A stretch of DNA of 64,000 nt from Terriglobia bacterium (GTDB lineage Bacteria > Acidobacteriota > Terriglobia > Terriglobales > Acidobacteriaceae). Location of the stretch: contig JAIQGL010000007.1 in the NCBI GenBank assembly GCA_020072585.1, positions 62,001 through 126,000 on the forward strand, read 5' to 3'. Position 1 is the stretch's first letter. Every line of letters begins with the position of its first letter. The position numbers were made by a program, and so were the translations under genes. This document shows positions 42,030-51,190 of the stretch, piece after piece. The notes beneath the pieces are model-generated. The model was not told where the DNA came from. It ran no database searches and was given only the letters and a program-made list of their open reading frames with translations.

Positions 42030-42494
42030 CATTTGTCATCTCCCCACCTGACTCTGAGTTTTCGAGACAAATCCGTTTGCAGAATTGTGAATTCTTTTGC
42101 GTGCGTGTGAAGGAGCCGGCTGGAAAATATATCGTCCGGCGATTTGTTAAAGAATTTAATTCCCATTTAATGAGCCCCTAAGCAGCCAGGCGCAACCTAC
42201 ACGTGAATCGACGGGTGGATGCTCCGGGCCAATGCTACGGAAGCGCATTTTCCAGCAGTTTGTCCCCCTGCGGCCACACATACTTAGGACCCTCAAAATG
42301 TGCCGTGGTGCAACGGTGCTGATGGTCACTGAAGGCAAGTAAGGCAAGACTGGTTTCCGGGACACGCAAGGAGTCGTCTCCTCCCAGTTTCTTACCTGGC
42401 TCCACAGTGAGTTTAGTCAGCCGGCAAGCAAGCAACCTTGTTCCACCACAAGCACTTTGCTGGTCTGCGGACCAAAAACAAGGAGCGCTTTTCT
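42030..42494. other. Long 5' region of the di-heme peroxidase gene
   Basis: 465 bases without a supported gene. The stretch 42330-42400 can form small hairpins (CTGG-TTT-CCGG and GGAG-TCGT-CTCC) around 'GACACGCAAGGAG', so a structured leader is possible, but no riboswitch class fits well. Confidence 0.4.
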
Positions 42495-44615
42495 ATGCTT
42501 TCCCAGAGCAAACTCAAACAACTGGTCGCGTTCTTCTTCTCTCTATGCGCGATCACACTATTCAGCGTTACCTATCTCTCTGCAAAAGGCGGGGGTGGTG
42601 GCCAAGACAACAATGGGGCCCGGAACCAAGTAGGCAAAGGCGGTAATGGCGGCCAGAATGGCGGAGTACAGGTAGGCGGCCAAAAAGGTAAGGGCGGCAA
42701 CGGCGACGGTAATGGTGGCGATAATGGGGGGAACGGCGGTGGCAAAGGTGGAAATGGCGGCAGCAAAGGTGGAAACGGTGGTGGCAAAGGCGGCAACGGC
42801 GGCGGTCATGACGGCCGCGGTCTTACGTCGTTAAAGACTGTCCCTATCCCTGGCCCTACTGCAACAGAACTGGCGAACGTGATCAAAGACAAGAACGCTG
42901 CGATTGCTCTGGGTAAAGCGTTCTTCTGGGAGATGCAGTTTGGCAGCGACGGCAAAACAGCCTGCGCTACCTGTCACTTCAATGCAGGCGCGGACAGCCG
43001 CATCAACAATCAAACAGATCCTGGATTGCGTCGCGTCGATGGCAACGGCTTTCCTTCGCCTGACTCAACTACATTTCACGCGGGCTTTGGACCAAATCAC
43101 AGTCTCGCTCTCAGCGACTTCCCGCTGCACACTCTGAATCGCGACAACAACAACATCGTGGGTTCGCAGGGTGTGTTCCGCTACAACTTTAATGACGTGG
43201 TGCTGGGGCAAGCCGCGGAAAACGAAACCGGCGTCACCGATCCCGTCTGGAGCATCTCCAACGGCGCTGACGGCACGGTGAACGTCCGGCGCTCCACGCC
43301 GCGCAACGCTCCTCCGGTCATCAACGCGGTATTCAACTACCGCAATTTCTGGGACGGACGCGCGCAGAGCACCTTCAACGGCGTGAATCCCTTCGGCGCC
43401 GGCGATCCCAGTGCGCATCTTCTTCAAGTCGATCCCAGCAATCCCAACTCTACGATCGAAGTCACGCTTCGCTTGTCGAACTCTTCGCTGGCATCGCAGG
43501 CCGTTGGGCCTCCGGGCAGTGACGTGGAAATGTCCGCTACGGGCCGTCCATTCGTGAAGATGGGCAAGAAGATGCTCATGCTCACTCCGCTGGCCTTGCA
43601 ACAGGTCGCAGCCGATGACAGCGTGCTCGGCAGCCTGAGCGCATCACCCAACAACGGCCTGACCACGGATTATGTCGCCATGATCAAGGCTGCATTCCAG
43701 AACAAGTGGTGGGGCTCCAACATTGTGGTGGACGCCAACAGCAACGTTCTTCACACCGGCGCGCCGCAGAACACTGACGAGTACTCGCAGATGGAATACA
43801 ACTTCTCGCTCTTCTGGGGAGTCGCTATCCAGATGTACGAATCCACTCTGGTTTCAGACAACTCGCGCTTTGACCAGTTCATGGACGGCAACCGCACCGC
43901 TCTCACAGCTCTTGAACAGCTCGGTCTTGATCGCTTCCAGGGCAAGGGTCACTGCGCCAGCTGCCACAATGGCGCTGAATTCACTGATGCCACGGTTTCC
44001 AACGTTCTGCAACACGGCTCCGTGGTTGAGCAACTGCCTGGCGGACGCTGGCACGATATCGGCTTCCACAACATCGGCGTGCGCCCGACCGACGACGACA
44101 TGGGCCTCGCGGCCTCTGATCCTTCCGGATTAGCGTCTCTCTCCGTGGCCCAGCTCGCCGCCATGGGACAGGTCACCGGAACTCCGGTGCCTGCCGGCGC
44201 GCCCGTCTCCGTTCGTGGAGCGGTCAAAACGCCCAGCCTGCGCAACGTTGAACTGACCGGTCCGTTCTTCCTGAATGGCGGCCAAGCCAACCTCTCCCAG
44301 GTGGTGGATTTCTACAGCCGCGGCGGGGACTTCCCTTCTTCGGACATCGATCCCAATCTTGAGCGCGCCAGCTTTGGCACGCTCGATCGAGCTGCCGTGG
44401 TGGCTTTCCTGAAGTCGCTCACGGACGAACGCGTAAGAAATCAAAGCGCGCCCTTCGACCATCCTTCACTCGCGGTTCCAAACGGTGGAGCGGTGTCGAA
44501 TGGCGTTCTGACGGAGCAAATGCTCACGATTCCTGCTACCGGCGCCGCTGGTGGAGCACCCATGGCCAAGTTCTGTGAATCATTGGCCGGGGCATCCGTC
44601 CAGCAGTGCCAGTGA
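42495..44615 (+). CDS. Di-heme cytochrome c peroxidase-like protein with Gly-rich N-terminal repeat
   Basis: 706 residues from ATG 42495 (AAGGAG nine bases upstream). Signal helix 'VAFFFSLCAITLFSVTYLSA', then about 80 residues of low-complexity Gly/Asn/Lys repeat (words like GGNGGGKGGNGG). The rest is a MauG/CcpA-type di-heme domain with heme motifs 'CATCH' (in TACATCHFNAG) and 'CASCH' (in GHCASCHNGAEF), 'YRNFWDGRAQSTFNGVNPFG' and 'VKTPSLRNVELTGPFFLNGG'. Periplasmic or cell-surface peroxidase or oxidase acting through c-type hemes. The repeat is unusual for the family and suggests surface display or matrix attachment. Own terminator follows; a cupredoxin gene is convergent. Confidence 0.88.
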   Translation: MLSQSKLKQLVAFFFSLCAITLFSVTYLSAKGGGGGQDNNGARNQVGKGGNGGQNGGVQVGGQKGKGGNGDGNGGDNGGNGGGKGGNGGSKGGNGGGKGGNGGGHDGRGLTSLKTVPIPGPTATELANVIKDKNAAIALGKAFFWEMQFGSDGKTACATCHFNAGADSRINNQTDPGLRRVDGNGFPSPDSTTFHAGFGPNHSLALSDFPLHTLNRDNNNIVGSQGVFRYNFNDVVLGQAAENETGVTDPVWSISNGADGTVNVRRSTPRNAPPVINAVFNYRNFWDGRAQSTFNGVNPFGAGDPSAHLLQVDPSNPNSTIEVTLRLSNSSLASQAVGPPGSDVEMSATGRPFVKMGKKMLMLTPLALQQVAADDSVLGSLSASPNNGLTTDYVAMIKAAFQNKWWGSNIVVDANSNVLHTGAPQNTDEYSQMEYNFSLFWGVAIQMYESTLVSDNSRFDQFMDGNRTALTALEQLGLDRFQGKGHCASCHNGAEFTDATVSNVLQHGSVVEQLPGGRWHDIGFHNIGVRPTDDDMGLAASDPSGLASLSVAQLAAMGQVTGTPVPAGAPVSVRGAVKTPSLRNVELTGPFFLNGGQANLSQVVDFYSRGGDFPSSDIDPNLERASFGTLDRAAVVAFLKSLTDERVRNQSAPFDHPSLAVPNGGAVSNGVLTEQMLTIPATGAAGGAPMAKFCESLAGASVQQCQ

Positions 44616-45016: not shown

Positions 45017-45577
45017 TCACTTGACCTCAACTTCCACCCGCATCCAGGGATGAATGCAGCATTGAAAAAGGTGTTTGCCTTTTGACAATTCCGGGAGCTT
45101 GATTTCGCTGCCTTGCAGAATCCTGGTCCTGGCCACTCCAAGGTTTTTAAAGCCGCCGGAACATTCTGGAACGGTGTCAGCTCCCGCATTGAGTGGCGGT
45201 ATGAAGCCGCCACCGAAATTTGCCACCTCAGTAAAGGTGTGCGGCTCGCCGCCCTGGTCAACCACGCTCAGCGGCGTCCCTTCCTTGATCACAACGCTGT
45301 CGGGCTCAAAATCCCAGCCCGGATCCGGCGTGCCGGCGGCCGCCTGGGCGAACAACTGGTCCAGCGTGGTGAAAGCTCCCAAAGCTACGTTCTTGCAAAA
45401 GTCGGCGCCAAGCGCCGCGTTGAATGTGGCTGGATCGCATTCGTCCAAGGCCACAATCTGTACTGCCTGTGTTGCGGGCTTTTGCTGTTTGTGTTCTTGC
45501 GTTGGTCCCTGAGCAAGCGCGTACGTAGCGCTCAAGAACATGAAAAAGCCCAGTAGCCATTGATTGCGGTTCATCAT
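45017..45577 (-). CDS. Secreted cupredoxin (plastocyanin-like)
   Basis: 186 residues. Signal 'WLLGFFMFLSATYALAQG'. The C-terminal half is a type I copper fold: 'DSVVIKEGTPLSVVDQGGEP' leads into 'HTFTEVANFGGGF' (first His ligand), and 'HLFQCCIHPWMRVEVEVK' supplies Cys, His and Met. The N-terminal 70 residues ('IVALDECDPATFNAALGADF') are a separate acidic segment with two cysteines. Would carry electrons or bind copper in the periplasm; a partner for the neighbouring di-heme peroxidase is plausible but unproven. Start may be either of two adjacent ATGs. Confidence 0.85.
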   Translation of the reverse strand: MMNRNQWLLGFFMFLSATYALAQGPTQEHKQQKPATQAVQIVALDECDPATFNAALGADFCKNVALGAFTTLDQLFAQAAAGTPDPGWDFEPDSVVIKEGTPLSVVDQGGEPHTFTEVANFGGGFIPPLNAGADTVPECSGGFKNLGVARTRILQGSEIKLPELSKGKHLFQCCIHPWMRVEVEVK

Positions 45578-45670: not shown

Positions 45671-46240
45671 CTAGATCATTCGTTCGGCAGAGACCAGCAG
45701 GGGAACGCCATTCATGAGCGAATCGAAAACAGGAGAAAATGTCGGGCCCAGCTTGCCCAGCTCCTGCAGTTGTTCTTCCGTCACGTTGGCCTTGATTCGC
45801 AGCTTAAGGCGGATCTGCTGATAGCCGTTGCGAACCGTGGGATCAAGGCCCAGAAAACCCTGCAGGTCCAGATCACCATCAAGGGATGATTCAACCTGTT
45901 CAATAGCGATGCCACGCGCCGCAGCGTGATACACCATGGAGGTTGTCACACAGGCTGCCAGGGCGTGCAGCAAATGCTCGACCGGGTTCGCTCCTCTATC
46001 CGTGCCGAGCAGGATGTCCGGTTCGTCGGCCGAGAGAGTGAAACCGGTCTTGTGCGAAAGCTCCTGTCCGCAGCCAGAGAATGAGCCCACCTCAGACCTG
46101 TTCTCGCCGGCATCTATCCAACGATTCTCAATTCGAAAATTGAACCGCCCCAGTTCCGGCGAAGCCTTTACGGCGCTGACAGTTTCCTGTAGTCGAGTTG
46201 TATCGACACCATTGATGTTGTGCGTGATTTCCAATTGCAT
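45671..46240 (-). CDS. OsmC-family protein
   Basis: 189 residues from ATG 46240. OsmC/Ohr fold: 'GSFSGCGQELSHKTGFTLSA', 'GTDRGANPVEHLLHALAACV', 'TTSMVYHAAARGIAIEQVES' and 'VRNGYQQIRLKLRIKANVTE'. The 'AACV' cysteine corresponds to a catalytic thiol of peroxide-reducing members; the second cysteine 'SGCGQ' sits in the N-terminal strand region. Likely organic-peroxide detoxification, or an OsmC-like protein of unknown substrate. Separately transcribed from the RiPP locus upstream. Confidence 0.85.
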   Translation of the reverse strand: MQLEITHNINGVDTTRLQETVSAVKASPELGRFNFRIENRWIDAGENRSEVGSFSGCGQELSHKTGFTLSADEPDILLGTDRGANPVEHLLHALAACVTTSMVYHAAARGIAIEQVESSLDGDLDLQGFLGLDPTVRNGYQQIRLKLRIKANVTEEQLQELGKLGPTFSPVFDSLMNGVPLLVSAERMI

Positions 46241-46391
46241 GTTCTTCTTAATTCCTTTTACCCGAGAGATTTTTGCGACCCGCTTCCATTGCCTTCTATA
46301 TAAGCAATGGGAATGCCATAGGTGCTGCGGCAAATTGTGGTTGCCTTCAATGACTTGCGGCGATGCGGCGGAAAGCCCGACTCACGATTTT

Positions 46392-46481: not shown

Positions 46482-48584
46482 TTACGCCAGGGCTATGAGT
46501 CGCTGCTGGCGCAGCATCTCGATCCCCGCTAAACATGCCTTTTCCGGCGTAACGCCCGGAATCTCGATATTACGCAGCAGGAACTCTCCCGCAATCTCCT
46601 GTACCGTCAAGCCGCCTTCACAAAGGTCCAGCAATTCGGCCGAGAGCGGGGTAAGTTGGCGAACTTCCGCCGGCCCCAGCGGAGTCCTGCGAATTGCGAG
46701 CTTCACCGGCCGATTGGGAACGTCATGTAACGGGCTTCTCTGCCGGAGCCGCCGAACAATCTCCTGATAATCCGCCGGAAGCTGGATGACATTTACTCCC
46801 GGACGCAGTTGTAGACGGCTGTCCGGGGAAAGCAGCTTTTCATTGTCTGCGGAAATGTCACCGGAGACTTGCTCTTGATTCTGGCGGATGGCGTTCATTT
46901 CATGGTCCGATTCATGATCGCGGCCAAGCAATGCCGCTTCATATTCTGCCAGCGCCGTAATTGCCAGAGGCGCTTTGCTCGCAGCAGGTATGTAATGCAA
47001 CCGCACAAACTGGAAAAAGTCTGCCGGAAAGCCGCTTTGCGCGTAGTAGGCGGTACGATCGCCCTCTGAGAAATGTACTCCGTTTTTTGTCCGCCATTCC
47101 TGCCATTGCTGAAAAACGTCCACTACGTTGCCGCTGTCCTGATGCAGTCCCAGGAGAAGCCGTCGAAATGCCCTCATGCCATTCAGGAGAAAATCGCGTA
47201 ACTCCTTAAGGAATTCGCGTTCGATGTGAGGCAAGGGAACAGAGTAAAAGCTGGAAAAAATTTCCGGATGCGCAGCAATCATCGCATGGTCTTCAGGCTG
47301 CTGCTGCCATCCGCGATACGACATATCGGCAACATCGTCATTCAGGACAAGCGAATCTTTGTGCTGCTTCTGGATGGGCGTATCCGCCAGAGGAGCCAGG
47401 ATGCTGAGTTGAGGATCAGCGTAGTCATAGCGCAGTGAATCCACAAAGAACGCTGCGGTATCGCGCAGGTCATTCATGGTTTCGTCGGGGAAGCCGGCCA
47501 TCAATGAGACCGCTGTACTGATTTTGAATTTGTCGCAGGAACGGACGCGCTCCGCCGAATCGTTCAATTCCAGGCCCTTGTCAATGATTTTCTGCATGCG
47601 CCGCGAGCCGGTCTCAATGCCGAAAAAAATGCCGCGGCAGCCTGCTTTGGCCATGAGCTCGATCAGTTCTTCGTCAACACAGTCCGTGCGCGCGCTACAG
47701 CCCCATGTAAATTCTTCCTTGCTCCCCAGCAGGGCTTCACAAAATGCCACCACGCGTTTGCGGTCCACCGTGAACATGTCGTGGACCAGCTCAAAAGAGT
47801 TGATGCCGTACGTTTGCTTGACCCTGCGCATATCGGCAATCATTTGCGCCGGACTCTTCAGCCGGAAACTGCGACGGAAAAAATCGTTGGTCGAACAGAA
47901 GGTGCAGGCAAAGGGGCAGCCACGCCCCAGCTCGAGCGGGAAATGGCGGCAGAAACGAACGTCTGGAAAGAGATGAAAAGCTGGAAATGGCAACGCGTCC
48001 AGGTCTGAAACCAGGGGAGCAGCCGCGGTGCGCACTATTTCTCCGTCTTCATCCCGGCGAAACGTAATGCCTGAGATTGTGGCCAGAGAGCTGTGCCGGG
48101 TGAGCGCATCCACAAGGTCAGGAAGGGTTTGTTCCGCTTCACCGCGCACTACCAGATCAACAAATGGAAAAGCGCGCATAGTGGAGACATCCACCACGGA
48201 CGCCTGGGGGCCGCCCAGCACGACCACTGACTCGCGATGCGCTCGCTTGACCTCAGCGGCGATGCGCAGCGTCAGCGGGTAGCTGCTGCAAACCGTACTG
48301 AAACCAAAGAAGTCGAAATCGCGGCCCGCGAAGTAATCTCCGGCAAAACGGCAAAAATCCGTTTCAGCGCTGCTTTGGCTTCGATTCGATTTTTGCAGCC
48401 AATCGTAGTAAACGCGATTGAGGTCCACAACTTCCGGATGCAAGCCCTTTGCTTCCAGCACGGCGGCGAGGCTCAGGATGCCAACAGGGGCAAGCTCACC
48501 CATAACGCGAGCTGCTTCCTTTTCGTCCATGGCCCAGTTATCGAACCGATTGGCCGTGGGCGCACTGATGAGGCAAACCTTCAT
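46482..48584 (-). CDS. B12-binding radical SAM enzyme, RiPP maturation C-methyltransferase type
   Basis: 700 residues from ATG 48584 (GTG 48593 adds three). N-terminal B12-binding-like Rossmann domain ('PVGILSLAAVLEAKGLHPEV', 'VVLGGPQASVVDVSTMRAFP'). Radical SAM cluster motif 'GRGCPFACTFCST' (C223, C227, C230) and 'GIFFGIETGSRRMQKIIDKG'. The C-terminal end 'ELLDLCEGGLTVQEIAGEFL' ... 'EMLRQQRLIAL' resembles a PqqD-like peptide recognition element. The layout fits the RiPP maturation radical SAM C-methyltransferase family (TIGR03975-like). Two small paralogous peptides with conserved C-termini lie directly upstream on the same strand, as expected for precursors. Which residues are modified is unknown. 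Confidence 0.85.
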   Translation of the reverse strand: MKVCLISAPTANRFDNWAMDEKEAARVMGELAPVGILSLAAVLEAKGLHPEVVDLNRVYYDWLQKSNRSQSSAETDFCRFAGDYFAGRDFDFFGFSTVCSSYPLTLRIAAEVKRAHRESVVVLGGPQASVVDVSTMRAFPFVDLVVRGEAEQTLPDLVDALTRHSSLATISGITFRRDEDGEIVRTAAAPLVSDLDALPFPAFHLFPDVRFCRHFPLELGRGCPFACTFCSTNDFFRRSFRLKSPAQMIADMRRVKQTYGINSFELVHDMFTVDRKRVVAFCEALLGSKEEFTWGCSARTDCVDEELIELMAKAGCRGIFFGIETGSRRMQKIIDKGLELNDSAERVRSCDKFKISTAVSLMAGFPDETMNDLRDTAAFFVDSLRYDYADPQLSILAPLADTPIQKQHKDSLVLNDDVADMSYRGWQQQPEDHAMIAAHPEIFSSFYSVPLPHIEREFLKELRDFLLNGMRAFRRLLLGLHQDSGNVVDVFQQWQEWRTKNGVHFSEGDRTAYYAQSGFPADFFQFVRLHYIPAASKAPLAITALAEYEAALLGRDHESDHEMNAIRQNQEQVSGDISADNEKLLSPDSRLQLRPGVNVIQLPADYQEIVRRLRQRSPLHDVPNRPVKLAIRRTPLGPAEVRQLTPLSAELLDLCEGGLTVQEIAGEFLLRNIEIPGVTPEKACLAGIEMLRQQRLIALA

Positions 48585-48667
48585 GGTTGTCACTTGATGG
48601 AACTGCGACCAAATGGTGTTGATGCACCACGGGCTAGCTACTCCAGGCCGTGATGCATCGTGACCAA

Positions 48668-48973
48668 TCAGGTGGTAGGGACTTCGCAGCCCATGTTGGT
48701 GACCAACGTATTCTGAAATGCCTTTTGTATCTCCAGAATCTGGGTGTCGGTCAACTGTACATCGCGCACTTGGCTTATAGCCTCAGGCAGTTGATTGACT
48801 ATGTGTCTTGCCAGTGCCCGGGCCCATTCTCTTTCCGCAACAACAACGGTTTGGGGCATCGTCGCGGCGCCAGCCGCGGCGCCACCGAGTATAGACGCCC
48901 CGCCTACTGCAAGCGCGCCACGCATCACAGCTCGACGATCAAGACCTTTCGATTTATCCTTGGGTTTTGACAT
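48668..48973 (-). CDS. Putative RiPP precursor 2 with twin-arginine signal
   Basis: 101 residues with CAGGAG before ATG 48973. Residues 1-37 form a Tat-type signal: basic start, 'LDRRAVMRGALAVGGASILG' (twin Arg then hydrophobic helix), ending 'GAAAGAA'. From residue 39 the protein aligns along its whole length with precursor 1: 'MPQTVVVAEREWARALARHI', 'VNQLPEAISQVRDVQLTDTQ', 'ILEIQKAFQNTLVTNMGCEV', ending PTT. The amphipathic middle would be the leader and NMGCEVPTT the likely core. Lies 75 bases upstream of the radical SAM gene. A Tat route would allow export after cytoplasmic modification (inference). Confidence 0.75.
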   Translation of the reverse strand: MSKPKDKSKGLDRRAVMRGALAVGGASILGGAAAGAATMPQTVVVAEREWARALARHIVNQLPEAISQVRDVQLTDTQILEIQKAFQNTLVTNMGCEVPTT

Positions 48974-48977
48974 TAAG

Positions 48978-49085
48978 TCACTCCTGAGAAAAATATTTGG
49001 CCACAGAGCTTAATCTTTCAACTTGTCGGTTATCAAGCCGGAATGAGATGCTGAGGCGTTTCTCGCCAACTTTCATGGTTGTCAC
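48978..49085 (-). pseudogene. Decayed copy of the radical SAM gene start
   Basis: GTGACAACCATGAA (49085-49072) repeats the start of the radical SAM gene (48593-48580). The 32-residue frame that follows (MKVGEKRLSISFRLDNRQVE...) aligns without gaps to the enzyme's first 16 residues at M1, K2, V3, R13, D15 and N16, then stops at 48978, five bases before precursor 2. The 3' flanks of both precursors are also alike. This shows a tandem duplication of precursor plus enzyme start, with the inner enzyme copy lost. It might be translated as a short peptide. Confidence 0.65.
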
Positions 49086-49153
49086 TTGTTGGACTGCGAC
49101 AGAACGGCGCTGACACATCGCAGGATAACTACACTCGCCCTGATGCATTGTGA

Positions 49154-49348
49154 TCAACCAGTAGTTGTTACATCGCAGCCCATGTTGTTGACCAACGTAT
49201 TCTCAAATGCTTTCCGTAGCTCATCAACCTGGTCGACGGTCAATTGGATGTCACGAACCTGGCTTACAGCCTGCGGTAGCTGGTTGGCTACGAATCTTGC
49301 CAGGGCTCTGCCCCACTCTTTCTCTACGGTAATGACAGCTTGAGGCAT
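49154..49348 (-). CDS. Putative RiPP precursor 1
   Basis: 64 residues from ATG 49348, preceded by a strong GGAGGAGG. Starts MPQAVITVEKEWGRALARFV, continues 'ANQLPQAVSQVRDIQLTVDQ', 'VDELRKAFENTLVNNMGCDV' and ends TTTG. An amphipathic helical leader is followed by a short Cys/Thr tail. About 60 percent of positions match precursor 2 by eye, with identity strongest in 'QLP.A.SQVRD.QLT' and 'NTLV.NMGC.V.TT'. No Gly-Gly cleavage site, Nif11 or NHLP signature is seen. Core chemistry is unknown. Confidence 0.75.
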   Translation of the reverse strand: MPQAVITVEKEWGRALARFVANQLPQAVSQVRDIQLTVDQVDELRKAFENTLVNNMGCDVTTTG

Positions 49349-49398
49349 GGGTTCCTCCTCCAAGTTTCATTAAAGCATTCTAAAAATACAGCAGGGAG

Positions 49399-49427
49399 TA
49401 TATACCCGACCCTTATACCCCTTTCAA
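49399..49427 (-). promoter_or_regulatory. Promoter of the RiPP locus
   Basis: TTGAAA (49427-49422) and TATATA (49404-49399) with a 17-bp spacer on the minus strand. The predicted start is about 45 bases before precursor 1, with no other gene between. Confidence 0.6.
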
Positions 49428-49849: not shown

Positions 49850-51190
49850 ATGAATCGAAAGAATGGTCTGGTATCATTAAGACTATCTCACAATACATAC
49901 CAGCGGTTGGTACGTCTGAACGCGGCCGCTCCAAGAGGATGGCAGGCGGTGGCAACCTCCTGTTTCGAAGTGCTGGTCATCGGCAACTATCGGCAGACGC
50001 TGACCGTGATTCGTTCGCTTGCTCGCGCCAACTACAAGGTAATCCTCGGACGGTCTGAACCTGGTGTGTTCACGCAGTATTCGCGCTACATCGAGGAAAT
50101 ATGGGAGCACCCCGGCATCGATTGCCACAGCGAGGAGTTCCTGACGGCGCTTTCGACCTTCGCGAAATCGCGCAATGCACCTATTTGCATCTTCCCGGCC
50201 GGTGACAGCGAGGTGTCTGTGTTGGCGCGCCACTTCCCTGAGCTGCCTCCGGCGACAATGGCCGTCATGCCCAATCCCGCCACGGTTCTGACCTGTCTCA
50301 ATAAGGTTACTTTCTATGAATTGGCAACCAGGCTGGGGCTTCCCGTGGCGGAATTTCAACTTGCCAAGTCCCTGCCGGAGCTCATGGCTCAAGCCGAGGG
50401 CATTGGCTTTCCTTGTGTGGTGAAGCCCATCGGTCCGCTCACTGATTTTCGAGACCAGAAAGCGGTTATTTTGCACAAACACGATGAACTCCCGCGCAAG
50501 CTGCCGTCGTGGCCTCCGGGGCATGCATCGCTCATCGTGCAGAAGTTTTCGAGCGGTCTTCGCCGCAACTGCCATTTCCTCGCCGACCAAGGCGAGATCC
50601 TCGCTTACTTTGAGCAACGCGTGCTGCGCACCGACCGGCCGGACTACATGGGCTACGGAGTGGATGGTGACGCGGTTCCTCCGACGCCTGCGCTGAAGAA
50701 TCACACCGCCAAGCTCATCGCGGAGCTGGGATACTCGGGGCTGGGTTGCGTGCAATTTATCGTGGATGAGATACGAGGTACGACGTCTTTACTGGAACTC
50801 AACCCAAGGCTTGATGCAACATGCGCCATTCCTTACTATTGCGGTTACGATTTTCCTGCCATGGCTGTGGCACTCGCGGCATACCGCCGTCAGATCACCA
50901 GCAACCGCCCGGCGAATGATTCGATCTATCCACTTCGCCGTGGTGTCTGGACCTCGGGCGATCTGACAAAGCTGGGCCAGGATATCAGGGCCCAACAGGT
51001 AAGCTGGGGCGAAGTTCCAGGCCGCCTGCTCCGAATTGCGCGCTCATTCTGCCTGGCGGATTTTCATCTTACCTGGAGCTGGCACGACCCGCTGCCGACT
51101 TGTTACGTGTTCGCGAGGATGTTGCTGGCCGCGTTTCGCCGGATCGGAGATCTCGTCGATGTCGGAAGGCGGCAGGACCGCTCTCTTTGA
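49850..51190 (+). CDS. ATP-grasp domain protein
   Basis: 446 residues. Pre-ATP-grasp Rossmann start 'FEVLVIGNYRQTLTVIRSLA' and 'FTQYSRYIEEIWEHPG', then ATP-grasp elements 'GFPCVVKPIGPLTDFRDQKA' (ATP-contact lysine), 'LIVQKFSSGLRRNCHFLADQ' and metal-binding 'SLLELNPRLDATCAIPYYCG'. The family forms carboxylate-amine or similar bonds; the acceptor is unknown. No Shine-Dalgarno precedes ATG 49850, and GTG near 49961 with AGAGG upstream is an alternative start. It sits between the tRNA-Lys gene and a tRNA fragment and diverges from the RiPP locus; a role in that pathway is possible but not shown. Confidence 0.8.
   Translation: MNRKNGLVSLRLSHNTYQRLVRLNAAAPRGWQAVATSCFEVLVIGNYRQTLTVIRSLARANYKVILGRSEPGVFTQYSRYIEEIWEHPGIDCHSEEFLTALSTFAKSRNAPICIFPAGDSEVSVLARHFPELPPATMAVMPNPATVLTCLNKVTFYELATRLGLPVAEFQLAKSLPELMAQAEGIGFPCVVKPIGPLTDFRDQKAVILHKHDELPRKLPSWPPGHASLIVQKFSSGLRRNCHFLADQGEILAYFEQRVLRTDRPDYMGYGVDGDAVPPTPALKNHTAKLIAELGYSGLGCVQFIVDEIRGTTSLLELNPRLDATCAIPYYCGYDFPAMAVALAAYRRQITSNRPANDSIYPLRRGVWTSGDLTKLGQDIRAQQVSWGEVPGRLLRIARSFCLADFHLTWSWHDPLPTCYVFARMLLAAFRRIGDLVDVGRRQDRSL

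Follow-up and report, generated by a model that had tools for sequence, protein, structure and literature searches.

A B12-binding radical SAM enzyme and two paralogous precursor peptides in Acidobacteriaceae: a probable RiPP-type modification unit

To our knowledge, few of the reactions that B12-binding radical S-adenosylmethionine (SAM) enzymes perform on peptides have been worked out. Among the enzymes that mature ribosomally synthesized and post-translationally modified peptides (RiPPs), the family of known chemistry that lies nearest to the enzyme described here is ApyD, from the aminopyruvatide (apy) system. It is reported to add a beta-methyl group to a Tyr of its precursor and to contain a RiPP recognition element (RRE) (PMC10635010). 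The rSAM_ocin_1 family (TIGR03975), composed of RiPP maturation C-methyltransferases, belongs to the same superfamily and performs the same kind of job. In bufferins and other RiPPs modified by multinuclear non-haem iron-dependent oxidative enzymes (MNIOs), the modified peptides are exported by means of a signal peptide, as reported in a survey (PMC12452194). Here we describe a locus of a Terriglobia soil bacterium (Acidobacteriaceae) which resembles these peptide-modifying systems yet appears distinct from them. It lies in a stretch of 64,000 nucleotides, the whole of which is referred to below as the window (assembly GCA_020072585.1, contig JAIQGL010000007.1, positions 62,001 to 126,000).

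On the minus strand of the window, a promoter-like element is followed by the genes for two short paralogous peptides, precursor A and precursor B, and for a 700-residue B12-binding radical SAM enzyme. All three open reading frames (ORFs) were found on one strand, as a preliminary description of the sequence had stated. In our judgement the locus is likely to be a self-contained RiPP-type modification unit, whose enzyme would C-methylate the peptides at or near the motif NTLVxNMGC and whose precursor B would probably be exported. This reading draws on gene content, the co-occurrence of precursors and enzyme, the lack of other shared neighbours, the selection pattern, leader sharing, the enzyme family and the predicted fold.

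Enzyme family and co-occurrence with the precursors

The enzyme gene (46482-48584, minus strand) encodes 700 residues from the ATG common to its relatives, and 703 from a GTG located upstream at 48593. Pfam B12-binding (42.5 bits, cut-off 32.1) and Radical_SAM (69.7 bits, cut-off 29.5) were both matched above their cut-offs. The CxxxCxxC motif, CPFACTFC, was invariant across 12 aligned enzymes, and the domain content is that of B12 radical SAM RiPP enzymes in general. The nearest named match was the ApyD family (NF050148), with 352.6 bits over residues 15-467 against a cut-off of 750, and its model matched all 12 enzymes scanned; rSAM_ocin_1 scored 119.9 bits, also below its cut-off (281.85). 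The predicted structure of the enzyme (mean predicted local distance difference test score, pLDDT, 81.6) matched the folds of OxsB, TsrM, CysS, MgmA, AprD4 and TokK.

As in the apy system, the locus combines a B12-binding and radical SAM core, an apparently RRE-type C-terminus and a short precursor encoded upstream. In contrast to that system, the score for the window enzyme was below the family cut-off and, in a midpoint-rooted tree of 34 enzymes, the sequence was placed in a 19-row group (support 95/92) which also comprises rows from Acidobacteriota, Bradyrhizobium and Opitutia and is separate from those with ApyA-like peptides ending in WLYD (L069, L070 and L075). The group includes one long row, L153, and several of its inner forks are open in the tree. 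The peptides also differ: aminopyruvatide precursors have a terminal Asp and, if a cytochrome P450 accompanies them, aromatic residues at the second and fourth positions counted from the end, whereas those of the window end in NMGC plus a variable tail. Aromatic-x-aromatic-Asp ends were found, among the 34 enzyme loci, in the three with ApyA-like peptides and once in L066, where the reading frame overlaps that of the enzyme. Neither an MNIO nor a P450 was detected among seven window proteins scanned with Pfam, and the single MNIO match of the genome was located on contig C63, the window being on C29, so that the MNIO expected of an aminopyruvatide locus was not part of this one.

Sequence searches detected relatives of precursor A in 8 of the 398 genomes of the family, and in all eight an enzyme of at least 61% identity adjoined the precursors. 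The preliminary description had proposed a RiPP-type precursor and enzyme pair, to be doubted if the precursors were commonly found without the enzyme. The complete co-occurrence favours the RiPP reading, together with the leader helix common to differing tails and the PqqD/HvfC-like module described below. More distant enzymes (32-48% identity) were present in eight further genomes of the family, giving 16 of 396 in all at E <=1e-60. In G094 the enzyme gene was interrupted by unknown bases. Across the phylum, an enzyme profile matched 12 of 392 genomes at E <=1e-80, and a precursor profile matched 4 of 396, namely two known genomes and two at chance level. The latter were discarded as orphan precursors, since two weak matches (E 0.001 and 0.005, calculated for one genome) are the chance expectation when 396 genomes are searched. 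Neither of their genomes is among the 12 matched by the enzyme profile, whose 392 genomes may or may not have included them.

Nine window genes were used as queries against 23 relative loci, which correspond to 21 different places (two were fetched twice) and some of which cover few kb on one side. At E 1e-5, the enzyme (23/23 loci) and the precursors (7/23) alone were matched. The genes for the OsmC, cupredoxin-like, MauG-type peroxidase and ATP-grasp proteins, plus two genes beyond the last of these, had been considered as additional biosynthetic genes and were rejected, given that they had no match in these loci. Carriage of the unit by phages or plasmids was also rejected: no phage match was found at E 1e-30, and the 12 plasmid records that matched were all below 60% identity. 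The two plasmids inspected, Sinorhizobium meliloti pRmeGR4a (L144) and Mesorhizobium huakuii p_3 (L145), carry ~30% identical enzymes. The operons around these also encode a further radical SAM protein and include a gene whose annotation reads diaminopimelate decarboxylase or alanine racemase, and so look like small-molecule pathways.

Precursor peptides and leader sharing across the clade

Precursor A (49154-49348, minus strand) is a peptide of 64 residues without a signal peptide, and its C-terminal end is NTLVNNMGCDVTTTG. Precursor B (48668-48973, minus strand) has 101 residues and is composed of an N-terminus resembling signals for twin-arginine translocation (Tat), LDRRAVMRGALAVGGASILGG, a helical domain as in A, and the C-terminal end NTLVTNMGCEVPTT. 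The two precursors are 65% identical to each other. Both types were found in four genomes, the signal-bearing type alone in three, and two signal-less peptides in the remaining one, G134. In the peptides of this genome (L048, 1186-1395 and 1462-1677), MGC is replaced by MGEDSDETP.

Precursors A and B look genuine as genes, because ribosome-binding-site-like stretches were seen by eye ahead of both and the ratio of non-synonymous to synonymous change (dN/dS, omega) stayed below 1 in each of the segments, at 0.48-0.74 in the tail and 0.07-0.54 elsewhere. Selection was estimated from 55 pairs among 11 peptides, leaving out those of G134, and the number of sites per segment was small, so that the ranking alone is trustworthy: omega was lowest in NTLVxNMGC (0.10 overall, 0.13 for A alone and 0.07 for B alone), followed by helix 1 (0.22), helix 2 (0.32) and the tail after the Cys (0.64). 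Purifying selection was evident in both helices (omega 0.17-0.54). In A (0.52) as in B (0.39), it was the tail that had the most non-synonymous differences per site, against 0.07 and 0.05, respectively, for NTLVxNMGC. As synonymous change is close to saturation in the tail, its omega among the A copies (0.48) did not exceed the value for helix 2 (0.54).

The Cys of NMGC was kept in 11 of the 13 peptides. Three of these 11 peptides lack any Thr beyond the Cys, and the residues after the Cys varied in both length and sequence. The Cys and the residues preceding it are conserved, and the Thr tail is not. The preliminary description had regarded the Cys/Thr tail as the modified core, a proposal that the data did not support in that form: the Cys is widely kept, but the most constrained stretch is NTLVxNMGC, and the Thr tail was rejected as the main candidate for the modified site because of its variation. 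Conservation along the whole peptide, which had been named as the mark of an ordinary small protein, was found for the helices and not for the tail. The structure model of the precursor (mean pLDDT 56.6) is usable for no more than two predicted helices.

Enzymes with 41-50% identity to that of the window were found in Acidobacteriota (including Edaphobacter), two Bradyrhizobium and one Opitutia metagenome-assembled genome, with their own short ORF upstream. A short ORF was also located just upstream of the distant enzymes in the family genomes G180, G031, G095 and G219. It ended 10-202 bases before the enzyme start in all 20 clade loci examined, window group included. Most of these upstream peptides have in common a helix of the kind LT..Q...L..AF.N, and their tails differ greatly: those of Bradyrhizobium, which have no Cys, contain VVVVVVVIVF, and others are Gly/Asn-rich or charged.

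This leader sharing was evaluated with a leave-one-group-out scheme, in which a profile from all other groups was compared with every ORF of at least 25 residues in each locus (154-417 ORFs), the candidate ORFs having been picked by position beforehand. The adjacent ORF ranked first in 14 of the 20 loci, eight of which are the close window group, and in 6 of the 9 groups, which is the fairer count. Control profiles were run on 18 loci; the reversed profile gave no first ranks (0/18) and five shuffles gave 0-1/18.

The precursor-like peptides of Bradyrhizobium (L060, 6605-6862; L062, 6212-6445), with the tail RRRIVVVVVVVIVF, are encoded beside enzymes 48-49% identical to that of the window. The poly-Val peptide is an attractive candidate substrate for the methylation of valine carbons.

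Precursor-binding-like module, Tat-like N-terminus and locus layout

The C-terminal 248 residues of the enzyme (46485-47228, minus strand) are likely a RiPP-precursor-binding (RRE-type) module fused to the catalytic core. The module comprises a helical part and a PqqD-like putative RRE, with weak likeness to HvfC and, in relatives, to ApyI. A PqqD-like C-terminus had been described before, and such a module was recovered, although with scores below the curated cut-offs: Pfam PqqD matched residues 644-700 with 16.9 bits (cut-off 23.4; E 0.0019 for the window module) and was detected, below cut-off, in 5 of the 8 modules. ApyI matched 5/8 modules (best E 1.1e-9 in L060, 1.1e-8 in L063 and 1.1e-6 in L067), and HvfC matched two, that of the window among them (E 0.0019). 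ApyI and HvfC are partner proteins of MNIOs, whereas here the module forms part of a radical SAM enzyme. The ApyI match had first been taken to mean that ApyD and ApyI had exchanged modules, a reading that was dropped, given that ApyD-type C-termini align collinearly with the module; this hhalign alignment was weak (E 0.021, probability 2%).

In the enzyme model, residues 586-700 form strands and helices which by eye are of the RRE kind. The fold search with the whole-enzyme model also listed, for some part of it, the TglHI entries 8hi7_A (E 8.8e-6) and 8hci_A (E 1.2e-5). Chain A is probably TglI, because the sequence of 8hci chain D is that of TglH, and these entries lend weak support to a possible likeness to TglI; the sequence profiles speak more strongly for the module. 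A profile of the C-terminal module found nothing among solved structures.

By eye, the N-terminus of precursor B opens with charged residues and DRR; these are followed by a hydrophobic stretch that has paired Gly, and the end resembles AxA in several copies. DRR was present in all seven B-type N-termini, and a Tat-like signal in seven of the eight genomes. The sole Pfam match of the first 44 residues was TAT_signal, below its cut-off, and TatC is encoded in the window's own genome. The N-terminus appears Tat-like and may also be an ordinary membrane anchor. The preliminary description had recorded no exporter gene and had overlooked this N-terminus; the lack of such a gene need not mean that there is no export. 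Bufferins belong with a different enzyme class (MNIO) and carry Sec signals, unlike the Tat-like N-terminus of precursor B. Even Sec signals are called rare among bacterial RiPPs in the survey (PMC12452194). In the literature collection searched, combining RiPPs with twin-arginine or Tat signals yielded no such precursor.

The promoter-like element (49397-49427, minus strand), with TTGAAA-17 nt-TATATA at 49399-49427, lies upstream of precursor A. Its core, CGGGTATATACT, was kept upstream of precursor A in three of the four genomes with an A copy, in agreement with the promoter of the preliminary description. A consensus promoter scan spoke less for it: the element was absent from its list, and the two sites listed were no excess over the mean of 2.4 in shuffles. 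The spacer behind precursor A (49065-49156, minus strand) could be aligned to the spacer after precursor B plus the first enzyme codons, with 71 of 94 columns identical, and the score was reached in none of 1000 base shuffles. By this alignment, the spacer is a relic of a tandem duplication. The duplicated piece was a precursor with the enzyme start, because the match extends from the spacer into enzyme codons. In Edaphobacter aggregans (L065, 6038-6385) an enzyme fragment is located between two precursors, a layout like that of the relic, and in L044 (12106-12414) an enzyme fragment is located beside the longer copy.

Upstream of precursor A, a divergent gene encodes an ATP-grasp protein (49850-51190, plus strand). 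Downstream of the enzyme are genes for an OsmC-like protein (45671-46246, minus strand), a cupredoxin-like protein (45017-45577, minus strand) and a MauG-type di-haem peroxidase with a Gly-rich N-terminus (42438-44615, plus strand). None of these was kept with the locus in the loci tested. Elsewhere in the window's own genome (6.9 Mb, 74 contigs), four radical SAM matches were found in three large open frames of 871, 850 and 1750 residues (G000:C25:26667-35069).

Alternative explanations and significance

Leader binding, methylation, the modification site, export and the function of the product are what we infer from these observations. The RRE-like C-terminal module would bind precursors A and B through their helical part, around V.D...LT..Q...L..AF.N, and the cobalamin/radical SAM core would then modify a residue at or beside NTLVxNMGC. 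The modification would most likely be the C-methylation of an unactivated carbon, by analogy with ApyD acting on Tyr. C-methylation is plausible because the relatives of the enzyme (ApyD) methylate, and near NMGC it is the best guess for the chemistry. Precursor A, without a signal, would stay cytoplasmic unless cleaved, and precursor B would probably be modified in the reducing cytoplasm and then exported.

Only tentatively can this be extended to a two-compartment family, in which the enzyme modifies small proteins in the cytoplasm, the Tat pathway exports B folded, and the signal-less twin with the same motif stays behind. The unit would move independently of its neighbours, and would belong to a wider clade with one shared leader helix and very different tails, such as the Val run of Bradyrhizobium. 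Tat-like export, proposed for just one of the twin precursors, would be the most unusual feature of the locus, and is also the least certain.

Several observations weigh against a RiPP-type unit with an exported precursor. For the C-terminal module, the PqqD, ApyI and HvfC matches were all below curated cut-offs, three of the eight modules had no Pfam PqqD match at E <=1, and the module of the window itself did not match ApyI. For the N-terminus of B, TAT_signal was detected in 4 of 7 B-type N-termini, all below cut-off, and TIGR01409 in 4/7, with a single one above cut-off (G050B, 18.1 vs 16.7), while three matched neither model. Full-length precursor B had no Tat match at E <=1, and in a Tat scan of its own genome it ranked 29th of 36, with 12.8 bits. 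In the leader profile, the adjacent ORF ranked second in two of the nine groups, in L065 and L066, and the profile failed in all four loci of one group, L051-L054 (ranks 68, 86, 89 and unlisted). Finally, the enzyme gene of G153 contains an internal stop, and the 61% identical enzyme of G134 (L048, 1732-3333) ends near residue 541, and no C-terminal module was detected within 11 kb of sequence; this genome is also the one whose two peptides have neither Cys nor signal. The truncated enzyme of G134 may reflect decay or a different use.

A different explanation, which we regard as somewhat doubtful, is that A and B are not precursors of natural products and function uncleaved, B outside the membrane, as small helical proteins bearing a modified residue, like modified protein subunits. 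It would fit the purifying selection on both helices, the location of the Tat-like N-terminus ahead of the helical domain of B, and the lack of a peptidase or transporter gene common to the loci among the window genes tested. The peptides of the enzyme relatives, with their very different tails, speak against it, as they follow the pattern of a leader with a variable core.

It is unlikely that the enzyme is not a methyltransferase but a macrocyclase or a C-S or C-C cross-linker, which would link a nearby carbon to the conserved Cys (or Met/Asn). The Cys closes the stretch under the strongest constraint, and PbsB, a B12 radical SAM RiPP enzyme, is reported to cross-link side chains (PMC12257519), which counts against methylation as the chemistry of the window enzyme. 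However, ApyD methylates, and the Cys is found neither in the two peptides of G134 nor in those of Bradyrhizobium, which have a Val run in their tail. Chance adjacency of peptides and enzyme, with a small molecule as the substrate of the latter, as the plasmid operons of Sinorhizobium and Mesorhizobium might suggest, is very improbable in view of the 8/8 co-occurrence, the absence of any other shared neighbour among those tested and the resemblance of the C-terminal module to RiPP-binding proteins.

Judged by title or the start of the abstract, none of the literature retrieved on such systems in Acidobacteria or Bradyrhizobium described one. As a probable RiPP-type modification unit, the locus would add a minimal family beside ApyD, composed of one enzyme with a built-in precursor-binding module and one or two precursors, with no other shared gene found. 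For a modified precursor, a Tat-like signal would represent an unusual export route. With its shared leader and differing tails, including the poly-Val one, the clade is a candidate tool for the C-methylation of unactivated carbons.

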